Origin: Globisporangium splendens
Taxonomy: Eukaryota; Oomycota; Peronosporomycetes; Pythiales; Pythiaceae
Direction of reading: 5' to 3'
Assembly (NCBI GenBank): GCA_006386115.1
Contig: VFIW01000144.1
Coordinates: forward strand, 28,389-92,388
DNA: 64,000 nt
The position numbers and the translations under genes were made by a program. Below are positions 1 through 48,195 of the stretch, piece after piece (position 1 is the first letter of the stretch; each line of letters starts with the position of its first letter). The notes below the pieces were generated by a model, which saw only the letters and a program-made list of their open reading frames with translations, was not told where the DNA came from and made no database searches.

Positions 1-774
1 CACAAGTCAATGACAACGAACTGACCTCTTCTTCGAGTCTACGCACCTGTTGGTTCAACTGAGCGATGACTTCCTCTTTTTCAACAACTTGCTGCTCTGA
101 CTGGCGCAGTTGTGCATCTTGAGCCTGCTCGTTCACTTGCTTGTCGTGGGAAATTGCCTGAAGGCTCAGTTGCTTCTTTAAAGCGGCGATCTCGGCTTGC
201 GAGTCTTGAAGTTGCTGACTTTGCTGCTGCGATTGTGTCTCGAGGTCCGAGCGTCGCTGCTCCAAGTCTTGTTTCTCGCTCTGAGTCAGATGGAACGCAG
301 TGTGGAGGGTGTTGTATTCACTCGTCAGCTGCCTGAAGCGCTCGTTACTCTCATTGATCTGTTTCTGTGGCTCTGCGACCATCTCTTCGTTGGACTGATG
401 CGAGACTTTTTCTTTCTCGAGCTCTTCCAAGTCACTCACCAGCTCGCTCGTGTAGCTTTTCACACTTTCTTCCAGCTGCACCACTTTTTCTTCCAGCTGC
501 ACCACTTTTTCTTCCAGCTCCTTTTTCTCCGCATCCCATTGCTCTTCCAATTCTCGCTTGCTAGTCTCTAGTTGCTCGTACGCCACTCGCCACTGCTCAT
601 TTTCTTCACGATACGCGTCGTTTGCCTGCATCAACTCGGCAAACTTCAGCTTTCCTGTTCAATGGCGATCTGCATCTGGGCTTTTTCATTTGCATGCTGT
701 CTGTACAAGCCATCGTTTGCCTCTTTCAGCTGCTCCACTTCTTCCTCTAGCGCTTTGAGTCGTTCCTGCGTCAT
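1..774 (-). CDS. Coiled-coil protein, 5' part only, with a one-base frame break
   Basis: I do not recognise the family. The minus strand from the ATG at 774 encodes an almost uninterrupted heptad-rich coiled coil (E, Q, K, L dominated) that is still open at base 1, so the gene continues outside the window. The reading frame breaks at about 650-653: upstream codons run into TGA, while the following codons continue the same coiled coil in the next frame. Adding one A to the minus-strand AAA run there would restore one frame, so this is either a homopolymer sequencing error or a recent mutation. A short 5' exon starting at an ATG near 874 with a 38-nt GT-AG intron is possible but the intron is very short. 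A 21-bp unit encoding a heptad is tandemly duplicated at 469-519. Likely role is structural or tethering; no catalytic domain is visible. Confidence 0.7.
469..519 (-). repeat. 21-bp in-frame tandem repeat encoding coiled-coil heptads
   Basis: Two complete copies and a partial third of a 21-bp unit encode the heptad EEKVVQL on the minus strand. The period equals exactly three helical heptads' codon length, so unit gain or loss keeps the coiled-coil register. Confidence 0.8.
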
Positions 775-971
775 GTCCGGCGAATGTGAGCTAGAAGGGA
801 GCTCCTCCAAGTGCCTTCATCGACTCACAATGTAACCAAGTTATCCTGTTGGGGGATGTAGGAGCGCTGAAGCATGCTGATCTATAAGTACGAGAAGCCC
901 AACAAACCTGCAGCATCGTGATTTCATCGCTTCCCTTGCTCATTGGTATATTTAGTGTCACTGACCGTTTA

Positions 972-2954
972 TTATTTGCGAAATTCCTCCAGCAGTTTGT
1001 CAACGAGAATCCACTCTTCGCTTGAATGCTGCAAGTACACAAAGCCAAATGAGACGTCACTGGCATCATTTACTCAACAGAGAGAGAGAAGAGAGTAAAA
1101 TAGCGAACGAACCTGTGGTGCTGGTGCTTCCTCATCTTGTAAGTAGGCTGCCAACTCGCTAAGTACCCGAGAAAGCTGTAAACAAAACAGTCTAGTCATT
1201 AGCTTTCCAGAAAACGGTCTGGTGCGCAAGCAAGCAACGACAGACACACACGCACCGTCGATAAATGCACTAGCAAATCCTGGTCCGACGCCGTCATTTG
1301 TTGGGAAACCTCAATATCGCGCTGCTTCCATCGCATCGTGAGCAGCTCGTGAGCTTTAGAGTACAACATTGTTCGGAACTCAGCATAGTTGATCCCAGTG
1401 TTGGCCTTCATCACCACTTGGCACTGGTCTTTGAACTCTCTGCCAACGAGTCCCAACTCTTTCAGGTCCTCGAGCTCGTTCTCGACGGCACCGCACTCGC
1501 GCTGGAAGAATTGCCAAATCTGGTCGAGATTGTAGCCATTGAACCAGTTGTGGTTGATTGAGATCGTGGCTTCGACATTCTTGACCTGGTGGTACCACCC
1601 ACTCGGTACGAAAATGGCTTCCCCAGCCTCCTGCGTCACGTAGATCGGAGTGGCTTCATGGACGTGCGGGAACTGCGTGCGGTCAATGTCCTCCATAGTC
1701 ACATCCGGAATCACATATCGCCCAAAGCGATCCTTCAACTTCCATTCCTACATATGTGTGTGTGTGTGTGAATAAAGCCACGGTTGCCAAGAGAAAATGA
1801 GTACCACTGCACACGGATAAAGCGTTAGAGGAGCTCGTAAGTAATCGCCTACCTCATCGGGATGAAAGAAGATCCACTCTTTGCGACCAGTGATATTGAC
1901 TGACCAACTGCGTAAGCCAGAGCAAGGCAGGTATCTGAGAACCAAAGAGCGCAGGCATGAATGGAGCCACTGCAATAAACTTACCTGTATGACCGAAACA
2001 CGTCGTGGTGCATGGGCGTCCAGCTCCCAGCAGGACCTGTCCAAACACACAGCAATGCCCATTCAGCACACAGAAGTTCTTGGATGAATGGCACAAACCA
2101 GAGGCTTTACACACCGATGTAAACGAATCGATAGTCGTCACCGCTTTGTTTATGGCGGTCCCACCACCTGCACTCATCCACACTCATATGAAATAATCAG
2201 ATCTTTTGTGCGTTGCTGTCATAGAGATCCATTTGACAGGTGAGCGTACACACCAGTTCAACCAATCGTCCTCAAAAAAGGTCGGCGTGCTTCCCATTCA
2301 CAACCACAGCAAGCAGCATAGATGGTGGGTTAGTTTGAGCGAAAGCAGCAATACCAGATACCTCCATTAAAGGATGAAAATTTTCCACACGCACGTGTAC
2401 ACTGGTTGATCAGGGAACGCGTGCACAAAGTGCCAGTCTTTCAAGTACCGCTTGCCTGCTTCGTTCTTCTGCAGCAACGTCAGGTATTCGTCTGCTGCCC
2501 AGCATTACATAGTAATGCACAGTCAGCATTAAACGATCGTCGTCATCACCACAAGCTCGCATTGTCGTACCGAATCGCATTGTCGTGCGTGTCTCTGCAC
2601 CGTACTCGACCACATTGCCATCGACAACCTTCCCGATATGAATCCAATTGATAAGCAGCGTATAGCGTCAGTGTTATTTACGTATACCCATTGCAGCCAG
2701 AATGCATATCGCGCATCCTGCTTGGAGACACAAACAAACGGAAAAGCAACCGCACGCACCGGGACTTGTGCGTCTCCGTATTTGGCTTTCAACGCGTCAA
2801 AATTGATGCTCCCGTCATGTGGACAGCGCCACTGTGCATCTGCGACCTGGAACCATTTCGAAGTCGCGTTGTGCAGCTTCACGGGGGTGTTGGTCGCGAG
2901 AAAGCGCGCGCAAAACTCGTCGTAACGCAGCGTCTGTGCATCCACCACCTCCAT
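972..2954 (-). CDS. JMJD4: JmjC-domain 2-oxoglutarate oxygenase, JMJD4-like
   Basis: Ten exons, all GT-AG: 2954-2751, 2628-2571, 2494-2395, 2289-2254, 2167-2115, 2036-1985, 1907-1853, 1747-1256, 1175-1113, 1028-972. Phases agree and give 389 residues, close to the family length. The JmjC core is complete: GPAGSWTPMHHDVF carries the HxD iron ligands, WSVNITGRKEW follows, and ISINHNWFNGYN holds the distal iron histidine. Human JMJD4 is known to hydroxylate a lysine of translation release factor eRF1; the same role here is inferred by orthology. The start is the ATG at 2954, 50 nt downstream of an oomycete-like initiator; an upstream in-frame extension is less likely. The intron before exon 8 contains a (GT)n run. 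It is divergent from the RME-8-like gene to the right. Confidence 0.9.
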
Positions 2955-38090: not shown

Positions 38091-38870
38091 TCAAAATGGG
38101 TACCACTTGTGAACATGGGGGCCATCGCACACCGCAATATCACAAGGGCCATCTGGGATCTCTTCCACAGATGTGTACACCCATACTACTTCATCCGTTG
38201 TTGTGCAGCACAAGTCAACATCGCGTGACTTGTCAACGGAGATCTTCATATCCATCCAGTCAATGCTAGGTTGGTAACGCTTCAACCATGGCATGCCCAG
38301 GATGATGTCAAACTTGTCATCGAGGTCGAGTAAAATAAACTCGTCTTCACCTCGGAAATCTTCACACTTGATTGCCAAGCGCACCACGCGCTTCGGCATC
38401 TTCACAGTTGACCCATTTGCCAACCGGACGATCATTGTCTTCTCTTCATTCGCATCAGACACGAAGACACTATGCCTGACGATCACTTCATTTCGAACAA
38501 AGTTGTTCGACGCACCAGTGTCAACCAAAGCTCGTAGAGGCGTTGCAATACCGTCTACATGAACTTTGTGAACGATAAAACTTGACGTTTGACTGACACT
38601 CTTCTCACTCATAGTGGAAACTGCATGTGCTTGATGCACATAGGAGCCAGAGTCCTGTGTCTCCACAACGTCCACAGTCCTCTTTTCCGGGCCAGTAGGA
38701 GGCCCCGCCCCTACTGTCCATTCCCGTTTTTTGGCCCAGGCGACCGCTCGAACCGACGACCGTAAGAACGATCGTGGTTGTTCGAACGAGCACCTTGTGT
38801 CGTTTGCCGACCCGGCAAAGACACCTTGCAGTTCCGAGCAATGTGACCCGGCTTCCCGCAACGAAAACAC
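38091..38870 (-). pseudogene. Aspartic protease of the minus-strand Gypsy remnant
   Basis: Open frame overlapping gag by 160 bp in the -1 register. The catalytic motif LVDTGASNNFV and the later IILGMPWLKRYQP segment are typical retropepsin features. It stops at 38091 without reverse transcriptase, so the element is non-autonomous or truncated. Confidence 0.85.
38693..38732 (-). promoter_or_regulatory. -1 ribosomal frameshift signal, gag to protease (minus-strand element)
   Basis: On the minus strand the heptamer A-AAA-AAC (38732-38726) is in the gag zero frame. After a 9-nt spacer, CAGTAGG (38716-38710) pairs with CCTACTG (38699-38693) around a 10-nt loop; the gag stop lies at the stem base. 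Slipping one base back enters the protease frame. Confidence 0.8.
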
Positions 38871-39733
38871 TTCCCATCGTTGCGAGGACGCTCATTTCCA
38901 GGCGTGGAAATGTACGAGATGTCCATGGGCTCGGGACCATCATGCACGACATTTGATTGCCGCATTGGTCTCGACGCAAACCCATGGAACTTCGCTTGCT
39001 TGATGCTGAACTCTTCTTGCATCGCGCGCTCAATGGCTTCGTCCAGCGTCTTGGGGTACTCGCGGAACAGTTGGTTCCGAATCGGACCATCGTTTAGACC
39101 CGTCATGAACGTCACGACTTGCGTCGGAACGTCAATCGGCTCGTCAACGATGCTCGACACCAAGTAACGAGCACGTTGTGCATACGAGTGAAGGTCGAAA
39201 CGACCTTGACGAAGCTTGAGGAACTCGGCGCGCGCACGGAACTCACTCTGTGGAGGTTCAAACGCCTTCTTGAGTTCGGTCTTGAAGTGGTCGTAGCTGG
39301 GGAAGCAGTTTAGATCGGCTAAACGCTTGCCATAAGCCCAGCTCTTCGCACGACCCGCAAGGTTGGACATCGCGAACAACACTTGCTGCGAAGGGTCTCG
39401 CAGTTGTCTTGCAGTGATGACTGCATCCAACTCGACGAACCATCGTGAGAGAGGCTCGCTCTCTCCGCCGCGATACGAAGAGACGTCAAGCTTCAGTGGC
39501 ACCGTCCTGAGTGAGGAAACAGGGGTTGCGACCTGCTTCAGGGAGGACATGATCTCGTGGTGCATGAAACTGACCACCGCACTCTTCTGGTCCTCCGGAG
39601 ACGCCGACCGAAGCAGGCTGACCACGGCAGCCTCTCCGATGACATCTCGCATGCGCTCAAGCGCCATCCACTCATGAGAAGACAGATGAGGGAAACCCTC
39701 AATAGTCAACTCGACAGTTTCCGGTACTGCTGG
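38711..39733 (-). pseudogene. Gag of the minus-strand Gypsy remnant, N-terminus lost
   Basis: About 340 residues remain. A retrotransposon Gag domain (FVELDAVITARQLRD...; FKTELKKAFEPPQSEF) is followed by a CCHC knuckle (CFRCGKPGHIARNC) and a basic tail. It is homologous to the Gag of the plus-strand element (shared FPHLS opening). Codons beyond 39733 belong to the inserted LTR, so the open frame that continues to 39781 is chimeric. Confidence 0.85.
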
Positions 39734-40268
39734 TGTAACGGGGTTACACTGTAACATGGTTACGCACTTGTGTTGTGTCACACAACCAAACCGAACCTTG
39801 CAGTACGTAGAGTACGCGCAACAAGTTTAAGACCGAACCATGAGGTTCGTCGTACTTGCTCGAACCTTCACGGTGGAGTCGGCAGCCAGTCTGAGTGACG
39901 GCGCCTCCGATTGAATATAATTGAACATGCATTTCATCCAATCACGTAAGACAACTAGCGTTAGTCTTTCATAGCCACTCATTGCCCCATGGGGAGTAAT
40001 TACACTTGAGATTGCTATTGTTCATAGTTACATAAAGATAATCAAGGTTGTCCTACAGAGGGCAACCTCCAACAAATAAACAGTTCCATTTTTACCGTTA
40101 ACTAAAGCCTTTGGTTGTCGACGGTTACTCTATAGAGACCTATAGGTAACCGATTGTTGCACTGCAGGAAGCAGGCAACCGCTCTCGGAACAGAGTCCTT
40201 GAGAGAAGCGTTGCATACGCTTCCTCACACACGTACCGTGCTGCGTAACTCGGAAGTGTCCGGTTACA
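39734..40268 (+). repeat. 5' LTR of the chromovirus
   Basis: Begins with the palindrome TGTAACGGGGTTACA and, by my reading, ends CCGGTTACA, giving inverted TGTAAC/GTTACA ends. The first 460 bp align with 47737-48195. The end at 40268 is inferred from the inverted terminus and the primer site right after it, because the 3' copy is shorter. Confidence 0.75.
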
Positions 40269-40340: not shown

Positions 40341-41534
40341 ATGGCGTCAGTTGACCCTGCGCAGTTCCCGCACCTCTCGGCTGAACACCGGAGTGTGCTG
40401 ACCCGAATGGCACAAGCGCTAGGCGACCAAGTCGCTCTAGACGTGCTCTCGGCGTCGCCGGAACAGCAAATCTTTCGACTCGAGCAGTTCGAGAACTTCT
40501 CGAACGCTCAGCGCCTCGAAGGAGAGCGAAGTGCGCAAGCACAAATGCAAGCCACCGCAAGCTTGACCGCAGAGATGCTGCGCTCAGCTGCTGAGTCGCG
40601 CGAAGCGCTCGAGCGAGTGGTTTCTGTGGTTGCTGGTGCAGCCACGTCTTTGTCGAGTGCGGCTTCTGCGCCTCAGACACCCACGTCCCAAACTCCCCGC
40701 CCAAGAGCTGTCAAGATTGACGCTCCGAAATTCGATGGTGCGGATGGCGACAAGCTCATCCACTGGCTACTTGCCGTGGAGCGTTGCGCCAAGGCTCAGC
40801 TCATCGACAGCAACGAGCAGATGGTGTCTTACGCCATCTCGAACCTGCGCGGTCGAGCGTCGGAATGGGCATTCTCGACGTTGCTCGCCGATGAGTGTGC
40901 ATTCGACACGTGGGATATTTTCCGTGCGAGAACCACCGCCATGTATCAGCCTCCGAACAACGAAGTGCTGTTGCAAGGTCGTTTCTTCTCCTTGAAACAA
41001 GGGAAGCTCTCACTGGAACGATACATCCAGGAGATGAGAAGCCTGTGCGCGGCGATCACGATCAGCCCTTTACCTGAGTCTGTGAAAATGTCTGCGTTTC
41101 TCAACGGCCTCAACAGTGGACCAGCGCGTCAGGAGTTGTACCGACGCTTGCCGGCCACGATGGAAGATGCGATCCGCATTGCGCTCGTTGAGCAGCAATC
41201 GTTCAGAGTCAGCCGACCTGATTGGAACGCTGGCCGCCACAACGGTGCGCATCACAGCCATCGAGCAGTCACGAATGAGCGGCGCTTCCATGGTCCGACG
41301 CCAATGGATCTCAGTAGCGCCGAAGTGACCTGCTTTAATTGTGGCAAGCGAGGACACTATCAGTCGAAGTGTCCCGCTCCAAGGCAGCCCGCTCCTCGCA
41401 CTGGAAATCAGGCGAGGGACTACCAAACGCCGCGCGGCAACCACGCTCACCGAGGTGGCAGATCCGCTGTGGCAAGAAAGGGAAACGGAATGTCTCAGCA
41501 GAAGCGGGACGCTCTACTGAGACAGACTCTATAG
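40341..41534 (+). CDS. gag: Gag of the chromovirus
   Basis: 397 residues from ATG 40341, about 70 nt after the LTR. Residues ~130-300 are the retrotransposon Gag domain (LIHWLLAVERCAKAQLID; AFLNGLNSGPARQELY) and a CCHC knuckle (CFNCGKRGHYQSKC) lies near 331-344, for nucleic-acid packaging in the particle. The frame is intact. It overlaps pol, which is in the -1 register. Homologous to the Gag of the minus-strand remnant next door. Confidence 0.9.
   Translation: MASVDPAQFPHLSAEHRSVLTRMAQALGDQVALDVLSASPEQQIFRLEQFENFSNAQRLEGERSAQAQMQATASLTAEMLRSAAESREALERVVSVVAGAATSLSSAASAPQTPTSQTPRPRAVKIDAPKFDGADGDKLIHWLLAVERCAKAQLIDSNEQMVSYAISNLRGRASEWAFSTLLADECAFDTWDIFRARTTAMYQPPNNEVLLQGRFFSLKQGKLSLERYIQEMRSLCAAITISPLPESVKMSAFLNGLNSGPARQELYRRLPATMEDAIRIALVEQQSFRVSRPDWNAGRHNGAHHSHRAVTNERRFHGPTPMDLSSAEVTCFNCGKRGHYQSKCPAPRQPAPRTGNQARDYQTPRGNHAHRGGRSAVARKGNGMSQQKRDALLRQTL
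41480..41524 (+). promoter_or_regulatory. -1 ribosomal frameshift signal, gag to pol (plus-strand element)
   Basis: G-GGA-AAC at 41480-41486 is in register with gag codons (AAG GGA AAC). After a 4-nt spacer, TGTCTCAG (41491-41498) pairs with CTGAGACA (41517-41524); inside, AGCG (41503-41506) pairs with CGCT (41510-41513) around GGA. Slipping back one base joins gag to the pol frame, and the gag stop (41532-41534) lies just beyond the stem. Confidence 0.85.
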
Positions 41535-42040
41535 CTTCGGCGTCGCCGACTACTAGAGTCGTGCAGATGGGAAGCTTAGTCCCAGGAGCTCTTGGCAACA
41601 AGGCTCCGAGTGAGATGTTGGTATATAGCGCCGATGTGAAGGGCTATGGGAAGAAAATGACGGTTCTTGTTGACTGCGGTGCGTCACAGAACTTCGTCTC
41701 GAAGGCAGCTCTGGAACAGAGTCTGCAAGCGTATGAGCGACTTGTCCACAGTGGCAAGCGCGAGAAGATGATCGTACGTCTGGCCGATGGGTCGACAGTA
41801 CACACTGAAGGGGTTCAAGTCGAACTCTCTTTCAGTTTTTGCGACTTTGTCTGCAAAGAAACGTTCGTGGTACTAGCGATGGGGTCGAAGTACGATCTCA
41901 TCCTAGGGATGCCTTGGCTGGCGAAACATCAGCCTTGGATCGATTGGCGAGCACGCACAATCGGAAGCTCCATCCCTTCCTCTGATGAAGAGCGAAGGTT
42001 GCGGGAAAATTTCCACGCAATGGATGCGAGCTTTGAACAC

Positions 42041-42176
42041 GCTGTGGCAGGGAGCCCAGCAGGGAGACATGCGGCGAGCTCCGCTTCAAACACTCACGCT
42101 GTGGCAGGGAGCCCAGCTAGAAGATGCGCTGAGGCAGGGAGCCCAGCAAAGAGATCAACTGCGGCAGGTAGCCCAA
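42041..42176 (+). repeat. Four degenerate 20-bp repeats encoding AGSPA motifs in pol linker
   Basis: GCTGTGGCAGGGAGCCCAGC recurs at about 42041, 42098, 42128 and (degenerate) 42158, between protease and RT. Spacing is irregular (57, 30, 30 bp) but stays in frame. Confidence 0.7.
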
Positions 42177-43891
42177 TTTGTGCGGAAGCGCCAGAAAGTC
42201 CAGACGTGGACACTGGTGCGCAAGTGTGCGGCTCCAGAGCACCCGAGCCAGCCCCCGCAAGTGACAGCGACAGTACAGGTGTACACGCGTCAACCAGCTC
42301 GTATCACCCTGACGGTGCAGTACTGGAACTCAGAACCGCGAGGTCGCGCGTTCGCATCAACCGACGAGGGCGACGCAAGTTGTCAGCTCGCGAGAGAGAC
42401 AGTGCATTGGCATCTGTTGCTGAGGAAACGGCCGCCTCGCACACGATTGCCCCATCTCTCAATGCAGCTGCAACTTCGCTGCGCACCTTCGACAGGATCT
42501 CGGATCCGTCGATAGATCGCGCTCACGTTGACGTGGCGCTCAGACGCGCGACACGCAGTCCGGAAGCAAACGCATTAGACGAAGTGTTCTTCGCTGAATT
42601 TGCGGCGCTCCATGAGCTGCCGAGTACCGTTGAGGCGATCGTATCCCTCGAAGAAATGAGCTATGAGCTCTTTCTTACGGATCTAGAGCGTGATCAGATC
42701 CGCGAGATCGTCGTTCCCACCGCGTTTCCGCGTGGCGAACTGTGCACCTCGTCCACTGCGGATGAGAGTGTTTTGGAGTCAGACAAACAGAGGCGGTTTG
42801 CTGCTCAGGACTGGGACGCCGTGAAAGGCAGTCCATACTTTGACTTGTTGTGGGAGTTCAAAGATGTCTTCCCCGACAAAGTGCCAAGTGCCCTGCCCGT
42901 TGACCGTGGCGTACGGCACGAGATCGACCTCGAGCCTGGGAGCAAATATTGCGTGACCAGACAATGGCCGCTACCCCGCGAGCAGGTTGAGGCTATCGAC
43001 GAGTTCTTCGCGAAACGAGCCCTCGCCGGTCATGTGAGAGAAAGCAAATCTCCACATAGCTCACCCACGTTTTGTGTGCGGAAAGCGACTGGTGGCTGGC
43101 GCATTGTTCACACTTTCAACAAGCTGAACGCCGCCACCATTCCGGCACAAACGCCGATCCCAAGAAAGGATGTCTTGATCGACTCCATGGGCGGCTCGAC
43201 AGTTTTCTCCGCACTGGATCTGATGGATGGGTTCTATCAGATCCTCATGCGAGAGAGTGACGTTCCCTTGACGGCAGTAAGCACACCCAGCGGGATGCTG
43301 TGGGAGTGGCTCGTTATGCCGCAAGGTTTGAGGAATGCACCAGCGACGTTCAATCGTCTGGTAATGCATCTTCTGCGTCCTCATCGTGCGTATGCACCGA
43401 GCTATTTCGATGACATCTTCGTGCACAGTCGTGCCGAAGAAGGTCTCAGTGCCGTTGACGTGCACAAGAGACATTTGCGCTCAGTGTTGCAGTGCTTACG
43501 AGACAACAGTCTGTATTGCAACCTGAAGAAATGCATCTTTGGCGCCTCAGAGATTCCGATCCTGGGCTGCTATGTTGGCAAAGCTGGCGTCCGCGCGGAC
43601 CCAGAGAAGATCGAGGCGATCGCCGACTGGCCGATCCCAAAGAATGCCAAGGACTTGCGCAAGTGGCTTGGCTTGGCAAATTACTTGCACAAGTACAGCC
43701 ACAACTATGCGGCAAGAGTCCGTCCGCCCACGCATCTCTTGAAAAAGGATGTCGAGTGGGACTGGACGAATGATGTCACGAATGCATTCATTGACGTGAA
43801 GGAGTCGCTCGTTCGCGCTCCTGTCCTGGCGTTGCCGGACCACACGAAAGCCTTCAGCGTCGTGTGCGATGCCAGCGATTTTGCAATTGCT

Positions 43892-45693
43892 GTGCACTGA
43901 TGCAGAAGGATGATGACGGCCATGAGCGCGTCGTATCATACCAAAGCAGACTGCTTAAAGCAGCTGAAAAGAATTGTCCTGTGCACGACAAGGAGCTGCT
44001 TGCGATCAAGTACGCTCTCTTGAAGTTCAGGGTCCACCTTTTGGGTGCGACACCGTTCGTTGTGTACACGGATCACGCGTCCTTGCGGACCGCGATCAAT
44101 TCCCCCCATTTATCGCAGCGAATGGCGCGATGGCTTGCATTCTTCTCCGAGTTCAACTTTCGGGTCGAATACAAGCCGGAAAAGGAAAATGTTCTGGCGG
44201 ACGCGCTCTCGCGCCGTCCAGATTACGAGTCGAGCGCTGACAGCAGCTCTGACGCCCTGTGTTTGGAGCGCACTCCTGATCTCATGCATCTGAGCATCAG
44301 TCGAGTGCAAGCAAAGCTCAAGGACAATATTCAGTCGCTTTATCCAAAGGACGATGAATGTCGCTTGTTGCTTGCTCACTTTGACGGCTCGTCCAAAGAG
44401 TCATTGCCTGCCAAACTCGAGTCAAAGCTTGCTCGGTTTAGTTACCACGACGGGTTGTTGTGGCATCGACTCTCCAACTTTGATTACCCGCGTGTGTATG
44501 TACCGCATGACCAGGATCTGAAACTTTCGATCCTGCATGAGTTTCACGATGCACCAGCGAGTGGGCATCTCGGACGTGAAAAGACCTTCTTGCAAGTGTC
44601 CAATGTGTTTTGGTGGCCACACCAGTACAAATGGGTGGCCAATTATGTACGCTCATGCGAGCAGTGCCAGCGCGTGAAGCCTGCGGGCAAGAACAAAGCG
44701 CCGCTGCATCCGCTGCCGATTCCGCAAGACTGCTGGAAGTCGGTCAGCATGGATTTCGTCTTCGGTTTCCCGGAAGACAAGGCGCGCAACACAGGCGTCG
44801 TCGTGTTCGTCGACCGACTGAGCAAAATGGTGCACGTTGCACCTGTGCGCAAGCATGTCACTGCGCAAGAGACGGCGTGCCTATTTTTAGAGCACGTGTT
44901 CCGCTATCACGGCTTGCCCGAGTCTATTGTATCAGACCGGGACCCGCGTTTCACCGCCGCCTTTTGGCGCGAACTCTTTCGCCTGCTCGGTACAGATCTG
45001 GCGTTGTCCACTGCCGATCACCCCGAGACAGACGGGCAAACCGAGCGCGTGAACCGTGTCGTCGAGGATATCCTTCGCAGCATCGCTGTCGATCATCCCC
45101 GCGACTGGAGCCGCTGGCTGCCGTACGCCGAGTTTGCTATAAATAGCAGCGAGCACGCCTCTACGGCCGCGACTCCGTTCTATTTTAACTCGCTGCGGCA
45201 CCCGCGCGTACCTGCCACTCTGTTTGAGGGCGTCGAACGTTCTGCGGTGGGAGGGCAACTCGCTGCGCTCGATGCGAGTGCGGGATCTCCGTCACCGGAC
45301 GTAGCGTCGACCGCTCACGTGGACGCGCGCGATGCGCCGCCTGTGCGATCGCGTTCCGAATCTGTCACGGTCTTACCGGACAGCACGCAGAGTATTGACA
45401 TGTCGGGCACGGTACTGAGTTACGGTACACGTGTCCCTAAAGATGGATCACCCACGGTACTGAGTTGCGGTACTCGTGTGTCTATAGATGGCTCTCCCAC
45501 GGTACTGAGTTACGGTACTCGTGCCAAAAATAGCCAGTCTCAGACGGAATCAGGCGACTGCTCGCGTGAGCGTCAGCCACGAATGGAAGGACGCGCGGTG
45601 TCACCCACCGGCGCAGAAATAGATCTCTCTGCAGCACGCGCTGCGAGAGCAACGAAAAAGCAAGACAAAGCCGTCGCGCCAATTTGTCGATGA
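43892..45693 (+). pseudogene. pol: Pol part 2: RNase H and integrase
   Basis: Continues after the frame break. RNase H: CPVHDKELLAIKYALLKF, TDHASL, ADALSRRPD. Integrase: HHCC zinc finger (HEFHDAPASGHLGREK ... CEQCQRV), core with MDFVFGF, VSDRDPRF and TDGQTERVNR supplying the D, D and E residues. After the core comes an unusual spacer with a 45-bp tandem repeat, then a stop at 45693 caused by a second frame break somewhere in 45620-45690. Confidence 0.85.
45409..45531 (+). repeat. 45-bp tandem repeat (2.7 copies) inside the integrase gene
   Basis: Units start at 45409, 45454 and 45499; each encodes TVLSYGTRV plus a six-residue variable part. The array lies between the integrase catalytic core and its C-terminal domain and keeps frame. 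Confidence 0.8.
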
Positions 45694-46582
45694 GCGCGCA
45701 GCATTGTTGCGTCGCGTACGCGACCAACTAGCTGCTGCGCAAGACAAGCAAAAGCTCTACGCCGATAAATCGGGTAGAAAGAACAAACAAACGTTTTGTG
45801 TGGTTGATAAAGTGCTTTTAAGCATTAAAAACCTACCAAACGATGCAGTCACAACGCTCCCCAGCGGGAGTAAGTTGTTGCCACGATTCATCGGGCCATA
45901 CACTGTTGCGGAGAAGATTGGAGACTTGAATTACAAGCTCGATCTCCCAACGAGAATGGCAACGCACCCCGTGTTTTACGTGGGTTTGCTTAAGCGCTAC
46001 CATGACGCTACTGTGGATTTTTATCCCAGTCCGGGAGAACGTCGGTCTCACCAGGGGGCTCAGACGCCGCCCATCGAGACACGAGCGCGTTGTGCCTCTC
46101 CCAAAGCGTCTTCACTCGCGGAGCGTACCTCGCGTGGAAGTGCTTCCCGCAGACATGGTACTCCTCCAGCATCTGACGAGCTTCCTTCAGCTCCGTCTCA
46201 AGCGCTGTCACCCTCTGCTTCAACAGCGAGGTTTCGTCCAGATATTGCTGGCGAAAGGTACGGACGTCTTGCTGTAGCGCCCCCAAAGACGATGCGTTCG
46301 CGTGAACCATCTGAACCACCGCATCTGGTGCAACCACCGATGCTGAAGCGAAGTAGGGCGCCACCTGTCCCGCTAATTGATAAGCAGGGAGAGCGCCACT
46401 ACCATGTTGAGCGCCTGCTGCGTGTGCAGCGGCGTAAGGGGAACACCCACTACCTTGTGAAGTGGCGTGGGTACGATGTGTCGCAGAGCTCGTGGGAGCC
46501 TGCTGAGCGCCTTCGCGAAGACGTCCCGGATCTTGTTGACGCCTTTGAGGCGCAACTGAGGGACTGTCATTCGCGCGAGTAA
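45623..46582 (+). pseudogene. pol: Pol part 3: integrase C-terminus and chromodomain
   Basis: A third frame, open from 45623, carries the integrase C-terminal module (FVDERAALLRRVRDQ, FIGPYTVAEKIGDLNYKLDL, HPVFYVGLLKRYH) and ends in a chromodomain (YHVERLLRVQRRKGNTHYLV; WRGYDVSQSSWEP). Chromodomains of chromoviruses steer integration to modified histones. The 3' 575 bp of this reading frame are also open on the opposite strand. Confidence 0.88.
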
Positions 46583-47552
46583 TTTGTCGCCTGATACCAG
46601 CGCGACCACCCGCTCGCAGAGGCGTGCCACCGCCCTGCTTGGAGCGAAACAGACGAACACGGTCAACTGCAAATTGCATGCGTTGACTGCGTTGCGCTGT
46701 CGGATCGGTAGACACTGTGCTAGTGCTACCTCCCTTAATTTTACTGATGCACGACATGAAGTCGGCATCGTACTCTTCTTCCGTCTCTCCAACAAAGAGG
46801 ACGACTGGGATCGGGAGAATACGCAATTCCCCATTTTCATCCCGCAATCGCTTTTCACGCCAATTTTTAAATTGAGCGTCATAGTCCCTCGCACAAAGTC
46901 TGGCTCTCGCGAGCAGATTCGATGCGGTCTTGCCAGCCGGCCATAGTTCTGGCGGCGGCATTTCGGGCAGTGAGTACTTGAGCTCATCGTGAACGATGGC
47001 TCGCACTCCTGCCTCTTCGTTTGTAATGAGGACTTCGTGCTTCCTCTTACGATTGTTGACAGCCTCAACGGCGTCATTTTCCTCCTTCGTCCGATACATC
47101 GAGACGTCAGCGGATGGATCTCCCTCGAGCTCGTGGAGATAAGCGGCGTGTCGCTCGCTTTGCAACTCCTCGTACTCGACCCACTCGTCGATGGAGCCGA
47201 GATTCATGGTGAGCGCTCCCTCGTCTTCAAGCGAGCTCCCGTCATTGTCAACGACGAGGAATTCCTCAGTCACTTCCTCCTCTTCCAAAGCACGCGCGAA
47301 CAACGGCTTCACGGAAGGGAGGTCTCCGAATCGCAACTCACTGCTTATAGCAGGAGCGCTATCAGATGTGAGAGCAGACCTGCCGTCGCTCTCCGCAGGC
47401 ACGTTGACCGCATCCGCGGTGACCGTCGTTCGTCTTGCGCTCGACGCGACCTCTCTGTCTTCCTCGCGCTTGCGCAGAGTCTCGACGAGAGTGCCGACGC
47501 CTTTCCCTTTTTGTCGCGCGAGCTTCTCGCGGACAGCTTTGTTGGTAACCAT
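46008..47552 (-). CDS. Antisense ORF of the chromovirus, 514 codons, unknown protein
   Basis: From ATG 47552 to the stop at 46008, uninterrupted on the minus strand (no stop up to 47594). I know no homologue. Composition looks protein-like: basic N-terminus (MVTNKAVREKLARQKGKG), an acidic Glu/Asp-rich middle (EEEEVTEEFLVVDNDGSSLE), a central segment with LRILPIPVVLFVGETEEEYD, a Gln/Ala/Pro-rich stretch, and a C-terminal coiled coil (LLKQRVTALETELKEARQML). About 970 bp are outside pol; the rest overlaps the chromodomain gene, whose third codon positions face second positions of this frame. It starts about 185 bp inside the 3' LTR, which could supply an antisense promoter. Confidence 0.6.
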   Translation of the reverse strand: MVTNKAVREKLARQKGKGVGTLVETLRKREEDREVASSARRTTVTADAVNVPAESDGRSALTSDSAPAISSELRFGDLPSVKPLFARALEEEEVTEEFLVVDNDGSSLEDEGALTMNLGSIDEWVEYEELQSERHAAYLHELEGDPSADVSMYRTKEENDAVEAVNNRKRKHEVLITNEEAGVRAIVHDELKYSLPEMPPPELWPAGKTASNLLARARLCARDYDAQFKNWREKRLRDENGELRILPIPVVLFVGETEEEYDADFMSCISKIKGGSTSTVSTDPTAQRSQRMQFAVDRVRLFRSKQGGGTPLRAGGRAGIRRQITRANDSPSVAPQRRQQDPGRLREGAQQAPTSSATHRTHATSQGSGCSPYAAAHAAGAQHGSGALPAYQLAGQVAPYFASASVVAPDAVVQMVHANASSLGALQQDVRTFRQQYLDETSLLKQRVTALETELKEARQMLEEYHVCGKHFHARYAPRVKTLWERHNALVSRWAASEPPGETDVLPDWDKNPQ

Positions 47553-47736
47553 GATACTCACGTGCGCGAGCACAGTGACTATACGTGCCAACACTCGGTG
47601 AAATTAACGCACGCGTCGCCGCTGTGCTCTTTCCCGAGGAATACACGAATGTTCCCCTTTCTCGGCGCACACGCGCGAGATCCACGCGTTTCTCACACCG
47701 ACCCTTCGAGTGTTTCGCACTTTAAGTGGGGGGTGG

Positions 47737-48195
47737 TGTAACGGGGTTACACTGTAACATGGTTACGCACCTGTGTTGTGCCACACAACCAAACCGAACC
47801 TTGCGGTACGTAGAGTACGCCCAACAAGTTTAAGACCGAACCATGAGGTTCGTCGTACTTGCTCGAACCTTCACGGTGGAGCCGGCAGCCAATCTGAGTG
47901 ACGGCGCCTCCGATTGGATATAATTGGACATGCATTTATCCAATCACATAAGACAACTAGCGTTAATCTTTCATAGCCACTCATTTCCCCATGGGGAGTA
48001 ATTACACTTGAGATTGCTATTGTTCATAGTTACATAAAGATAATCCAGGTTGTCCTGCAGAGAGCAACCTCCAACAAATAAACAGTTCCATTTTTACCGT
48101 TAACTAAAGCCTTTGGTTATCGACGGTTACTCTATAGAGACCTATAGGTAACCGATTGTTGCACTGCAGGAAGCAGGCAACAGCTCTCGGAACAG
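47737..48195 (+). repeat. 3' LTR of the chromovirus, truncated
   Basis: Starts TGTAACGGGGTTACA after the polypurine tract and aligns with the 5' LTR to 40193; then similarity stops abruptly and the final ~75 bp, including the GGTTACA end, are missing. Confidence 0.85.

Follow-up and report, generated by a model that had tools for sequence, protein, structure and literature searches.

Antisense genes in retroelements

Antisense open reading frames ahead of the 3′ LTR are known from plant elements, and antisense genes of retroelements have been described mainly from plants and from HTLV-type viruses. The sequence-only reading of the present locus had pointed to such frames at a like position in some plant Gypsy elements, and they are indeed described in the accessible sections of two papers (PMC11963269, PMC7264820). 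Among them are the aORFs of the Ty3/Gypsy elements Retand, Grande and RIRE2, which encode TRP28 proteins and, in some cases, SMC-type matches. The antisense protein of maize Grande is nuclear and has a promoter of its own (PMC7264820, accessible part). HBZ of HTLV-1, and likewise APH-2, is an antisense gene whose reading begins on the side of the 3′ LTR and whose protein is nuclear (PMC11963269, accessible part). By comparison with HBZ, a trans action of the plant antisense ORFs on the element has been proposed. Among microbial Gypsy elements, Boty/BcGypsy1 of Botrytis likewise carries an additional antisense gene, brtn (PMC7264820; Zhao 2011 via PMC8365987). The likeness of brtn to the gene reported here is by description only, and overlap with a chromodomain is not mentioned in the accessible parts of these sources.

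The window, i.e., the whole stretch of 64,000 nucleotides of Globisporangium splendens DNA that was analysed, contains a Ty3/Gypsy element like those of plants. Retand elements are non-chromoviruses with a gap of 2.9–6.6 kb between pol and LTR and with TRP28, according to the accessible text of the plant papers, whereas the window element has a chromodomain and a gap of 1.15 kb (from the pol end at 46582 to the 3′ LTR start at 47737), and TRP28 was not found in it. Unlike that of Retand, as far as the accessible text goes, its antisense gene overlaps pol by 575 bp. The Chronos LTR elements are oomycete Ty3/Gypsy elements with a captured chromodomain, as here (PMC5348765, accessible part). The same part ascribes to Chronos an extra archaeal/plant-type RNase H; the scanned pieces of the window pol matched only RT_RNaseH families. 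Antisense genes of oomycete elements were not found in the open-access PMC literature searched; the word antisense is missing from the accessible text of the oomycete retrotransposon paper (PMC5348765), and such genes are unmentioned in the G. splendens genome paper (PMC7163027). New here are a second lineage with a dissimilar antisense gene in the same layout and an apparent cassette swap of part of the first gene. Both of these, and the division of constraint within the overlap with pol, had gone unnoticed in the sequence-only reading.

The host element and the antisense frame

The element is a chromodomain Ty3/Gypsy (chromovirus-like) element of G. splendens, and both its type and its oomycete host had been recognized correctly from the letters. 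It has the features of the class: a PR-RT-RH-IN pol with C-terminal chromodomain, LTRs, a primer binding site, a polypurine tract and a 5-bp target duplication. The duplication was legible by eye in nine related copies and is unreadable in the window copy because its 3′ LTR stops early at 48195. The parts of the element are as follows.

39734..40268, forward strand: 5′ LTR (TGTAAC...GTTACA)
from 40271, forward strand: primer binding site, TGGTAGCAC, after the 5′ LTR
40341..41534, forward strand: gag (PF03732, zinc knuckle)
41567..46582, forward strand: pol (protease, RT, RNase H, integrase, SH3, chromodomain; ORF list and domain scan)
45806..46003, forward strand: integrase C-terminal SH3-type domain (PF24626)
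46004..46399, forward strand: pol linker from SH3 to chromodomain, sense frame unconserved between families A and C
46400..46552, forward strand: chromodomain, end of pol (PF00385, E 3.6e-15)
46008..47552, reverse strand: aORF1, antisense accessory ORF of 514 aa (stop codon 46008-46010, ATG 47550-47552)
47724..47736, forward strand: polypurine tract, AAGTGGGGGGTGG
47737..48195, forward strand: 3′ LTR with its 3′ end missing (LTR comparison)

When segments of the pol of a relative served as tblastn queries, the pol frame of the window copy, which had been read as already broken, was split at two places. Immediately next to the 5′ LTR, on the reverse strand at 38268-39739, lies a truncated gag/protease that belongs to another Gypsy element and is 85–89% identical to the gag part of the public gene model P0016.

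The 514-codon, ATG-started frame noticed in the sequence-only reading is present. Its overlap with the chromodomain-coding end of pol, put at about 575 bp, is exactly that (46008-46582, where the pol frame ends), and its start, said to be near the 3′ LTR, lies 184 bp ahead of 47737. The aORF1 stop codon begins 5 bp past the end of the SH3 domain. The ORF listing extends the frame to an upstream GTG (47594), giving 528 aa. The start MATNK is common to families A, B and C, and reads MVTNK in the window copy. When the 189 overlapped pol codons were reshuffled synonymously, the antisense frame stayed free of stops in 0.49% of the 20,000 trials, the mean number being 4.8, while the 323 aORF1 codons outside pol were open in none of 5,000 dinucleotide shuffles (mean 10.7 stops). 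These figures bear out the judgement that chance is unlikely at this length. A sense gene in the region 46989-47741 was considered and rejected, with pN/pS of 0.98–1.27 and 1–3 stops in each of families A, B and C in the aligned stretch; another sense frame, which mirrors the antisense codons, gave 0.56–0.59 yet contains 5–7 stops.

Conservation among copies

The 53.3-Mb, 195-contig assembly of the same genome was searched with aORF1, and 82 matches were scored. Among those of at least 90% identity that cover at least 498 of 528 residues, 35 of 43 have no internal stop, and a family at 59–61% identity is open in 17 of the 21 matches listed; the remaining 18 are partial or of intermediate identity. 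The 514-codon frame is retained in 20 of 21 fully examined family-A copies, namely the window copy and 20 taken from high-scoring matches, a sample that is by this choice biased to intact frames. In two of the 21, pol runs uninterrupted in a single frame over 1,660 codons or more. Among the matches listed, 123 of 128 pol-integrase places are followed by aORF1 on the opposite strand at a distance of at most 3.5 kb (150 listed integrase matches merged; 137 antisense matches used), and two of the five places lacking it are located at contig ends. Taken together with the selection analysis below, aORF1 is almost certainly a real gene, i.e., a conserved antisense accessory gene and not a product of chance.

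Three protein searches listed 40 related proteins, and all of those with a named organism come from G. splendens, although, with only about 8,000 candidates scored per search, the lack of matches in other named oomycetes carries little weight. Ten other relatives, on short Logan, JGI and ENA contigs, are 37–63% identical to the window protein where aligned. Among 191 pattern matches in viral contigs none was confirmed as a relative. The deposited G. splendens (FI667) models of the family bear the name hypothetical protein or, in the case of fusions, Gag or retroelement. The public models P0002, P0006 and P0016 join gag to the antisense frame of the family and are apparently annotation artefacts.

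Selection on the antisense frame

The frame is protein-coding and under purifying selection. The dN/dS ratio was obtained by NG86 for the part outside pol, between families that are 44–48% identical in protein. It was 0.33–0.38 for A and B (0.30–0.38 with the more diverged A copy L010), 0.25–0.27 for A and C and 0.18–0.22 for B and C, all of which are rough values because dS exceeds 1 and is near saturation. Within family B, nine of ten pairs gave 0.38–0.47, and the tenth gave 0.71 on five differences. Against constraint stand three single pairs within family A with ratios of 1.0–1.55 on 12 to 69 differences. For the non-overlapping part, on which the sequence-only reading had proposed that the matter be checked, the outcome is thus 0.18–0.38 between families and 1.0–1.55 in these three pairs. 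Copies exist, most of them open (35 of 43 and 17 of 21), and neither random interruption nor a between-family ratio near 1 was observed.

Further support came from measures of other kinds. Differences at codon positions 1, 2 and 3 numbered 136, 107 and 181 (P 5e-5) and 95, 98 and 163 (P 4e-6) in protein-guided alignments, and this bias is independent of the saturation correction of dS. In one family-B pair with few gaps, 29 of 64 single differences are synonymous (P 9e-5 to 0.003 by transition weight), as are 23 of 56 variants pooled from the 21 family-A copies (P 0.003–0.047 at transition weights of 1–6). The pooled variants gave a pN/pS of 0.48 for singletons and 0.39 for shared variants in the aORF1 frame, and 0.62–2.68 in the other five frames. 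For gag in 15 copies the corresponding values were 0.47 and 0.16.

These data bear on the possibility that the antisense RNA is the functional product, acting in dsRNA silencing or copy-number control, with the frame incidental. Antisense RNAs of comparable kind have been described for other retroelements (PMC7264820, accessible part). The antisense frame shows a codon-position bias and a dN/dS of less than 1, and the linker aligns far better as antisense protein than in the pol frame (see below), all of which makes this explanation improbable.

Division of constraint in the overlap with pol

The overlap was found to be segregated, the chromodomain zone being constrained in pol only and the linker zone in the antisense frame. 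In alignments guided by the antisense protein, with families A and B each compared with C, the antisense pN/pS outside pol was 0.50–0.52. In the chromodomain zone it rose to 1.22–1.28, against 0.38–0.39 in sense. In the linker the antisense frame gave 0.63–0.64 with 36–37% identity, and the pol frame 1.34–1.36 with 14% identity. Some of this sense divergence may reflect decay, since family C is represented by a single copy in which each of the two frames has one stop (in the pol frame, within the linker) and most of pol is absent nearby. A guide-free linker alignment of all 18 same-strand frame pairs gave z 31.4 for the antisense frame and z 1.1 for the pol frame; two of the remaining pairs, which mirror the antisense codons, reached z 7–9. 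The antisense C-terminal motif is also present in environmental relatives.

Opposite the chromodomain, with the pN/pS just given, the antisense frame acts like a shadow frame, and in this stretch the locus resembles what a chance or shadow ORF reflecting pol codon bias would produce. As an account of the whole frame this is extremely improbable and is refuted by the selection tests; the shuffle tests, the conservation outside pol, the antisense-conserved linker and the co-occurrence with pol (123 of 128 listed places, and 33 of 34 in the second lineage described below) all speak against it.

Predicted protein and its possible role

The AlphaFold model of the window protein (mean pLDDT 60, pTM 0.29) has a folded centre at residues 195-306, a disordered part at 309-407 and a long helix at 409-494. 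In ten-residue blocks from 411 onwards the helix has pLDDT 69–95, for the most part 84–95. The model of a relative of 41% identity shows a matching layout. The predicted segments map to the window as follows.

46635..46970, reverse strand: residues 195-306, central predicted folded domain, outside pol (AlphaFold, blocks with pLDDT 66–91)
46401..46553, reverse strand: residues 334-384, predicted disordered, opposite the chromodomain (AlphaFold; antisense frame unconstrained)
46071..46328, reverse strand: residues 409-494, long predicted helix, a probable coiled coil, opposite the pol linker (AlphaFold; linker z values as above)

According to the model, then, the chromodomain faces a disordered antisense stretch, and the antisense helix faces the poorly conserved pol linker. 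An acidic stretch at residues 91-145 has a net charge of −18.

Pfam and fold searches matched no known domain or fold, so that the role of the protein is assigned by analogy. TRP28 (PF04195) had no match in the whole genome at E ≤ 10, with no plant genome among the controls. In Pfam the window protein matched only DUF5798 (E 0.37), and TRP28 is also not among the 25 families listed for 20 members. HBZ of HTLV-1 has a C-terminal zipper. The window protein, which has a long predicted helix, differs in that no bZIP family was matched in Pfam at E ≤ 1, and its element is a retrotransposon and not an infectious retrovirus.

In the sequence-only reading it was suggested that the product could regulate transposition or chromatin targeting, and it may do so. 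The best explanation, which we favour by a modest degree of confidence, is that a purifying-selected antisense gene interwoven with pol encodes a nuclear protein acting in trans on the expression of the element or on an integration or chromatin step. The nuclear regulatory role taken by itself has roughly even chances. An antisense transcript would begin in or just ahead of the 3′ LTR; no convincing oomycete initiator (motif as given in the accessible part of PMC3599244) was seen by eye upstream of the ATG in four copies. Translated, it would yield a nuclear protein that associates with itself by a coiled coil, has an acidic part at its N-terminus and a folded domain at its centre, and acts in trans on the element's own expression or on its integration or chromatin step.

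The long helix and the central domain, both predicted, would also suit a factor other than a regulator, one that has a structural role, belongs to the particle or serves nuclear import by partnering integrase or gag. The gene is interwoven with the integrase tail, and some retroviral accessory proteins act in import (PMC7264820, accessible part). Such a function is unlikely, in our estimate.

Cassette exchange between elements

The non-overlapping part of aORF1 appears to have been exchanged as a cassette between elements that are elsewhere nearly identical, judging from sequence comparison of three elements (L017, L039 and L038).

46546..47680, no strand: exchanged cassette, approximate extent, carried over from L017 7250-8386; A and B′ diverge strongly only here

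The gag-pol pieces of one B′ element are 94–99.7% identical in protein to those of a family-A element, and the DNA of the two is 97–100% identical through the sampled pol end and 99% in the LTRs. Strong divergence is confined to about 1.15 kb, from the chromodomain end to just ahead of the polypurine tract, where DNA identity is mostly 48–66% and at most 74%, and the cassette proteins are about 45% identical. In another B element a related cassette is accompanied by a U3 that differs. In these three elements the same U3 thus occurs with either cassette and a related cassette with a different U3, so that U3 and cassette are not tied, and this speaks against a protein that serves a single U3 only. 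Since either cassette can accompany the same U3, a shared host or element factor would be a likelier target of the aORF1 protein than one U3 sequence. Owing to the exchange, the function becomes testable by comparing elements that differ mainly in the antisense gene.

A second lineage with an antisense gene

The genome also contains a second lineage of chromodomain Gypsy elements, in which a dissimilar antisense gene has the same interleaved layout. The chromodomain set of this lineage consists of 34 matches of 165–168 nt among 150 listed. None of the 34 has aORF1 antisense downstream, and two have it nearby in another arrangement. The gene, aORF2, was found in a 2.5-kb stretch.

L040 (G000:C32:91000-93500) 170-1780, reverse strand: aORF2, antisense frame of 536 aa from ATG

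The aORF2 stop codon lies inside the last codons of the SH3 match, and the heptad-rich C-terminal part lies opposite the linker. Matches to aORF2 overlap 33 of the 34 listed chromodomains on the opposite strand (50 of 81 matches used). A nested reverse insertion of another element was rejected as the origin of the antisense genes, since one orientation and position is shared by 123 of the 128 places listed for the first gene and by 33 of the 34 listed for the second.

Comparison of aORF2 with a 76% identical copy gave an antisense pN/pS of 0.41 outside pol; the chromodomain gave 0.18 in sense and 1.57 in antisense, and the linker 0.30 in antisense and 0.79 in sense. With an 89% identical copy, the value outside pol was 0.36 and the chromodomain gave 0.18 in sense and 0.78 in antisense, while the linker (antisense 0.38, sense 0.40) did not discriminate the frames. 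Two lineages in one oomycete genome have antisense genes interleaved with pol, with constraint largely split between the strands. They provide a natural example of the coexistence of overlapping genes, in which an antisense gene is physically tied to a chromatin-targeting chromodomain. Between the two lineages, the pol ends show homology (35% identity, E 4e-35); none was detected between the aORF1 and aORF2 proteins by hhalign (probability 0.35) or BLASTP (E 0.16).

The dissimilar gene at the same position, together with cassettes of about 45% identity in elements whose gag-pol proteins and LTR DNA are nearly identical, would also be expected if the protein were an anti-silencing or anti-defence factor whose divergence and exchange among elements serve to evade the host. 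Between-family dN/dS is well below 1, positive selection appeared in none of the tests run (site tests not among them), and no known suppressor domain was matched. Such a factor is a possibility that we regard as doubtful. Returning to the regulatory protein preferred above, we propose only tentatively a wider generalization, in which an antisense regulatory gene intertwined with the chromodomain would be characteristic of the chromodomain Gypsy elements of oomycetes as a group. The protein of this gene and the chromodomain would make up a physically linked targeting and anti-silencing module that elements trade by recombination, with different lineages having recruited unrelated genes to this slot.

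An acidic AVDYE-like motif was seen in the N-terminal parts of both aORF1 and aORF2 and is noted here as a lead only; when aORF2 was shuffled 100,000 times, AVDYE turned up in 28 of the shuffles.
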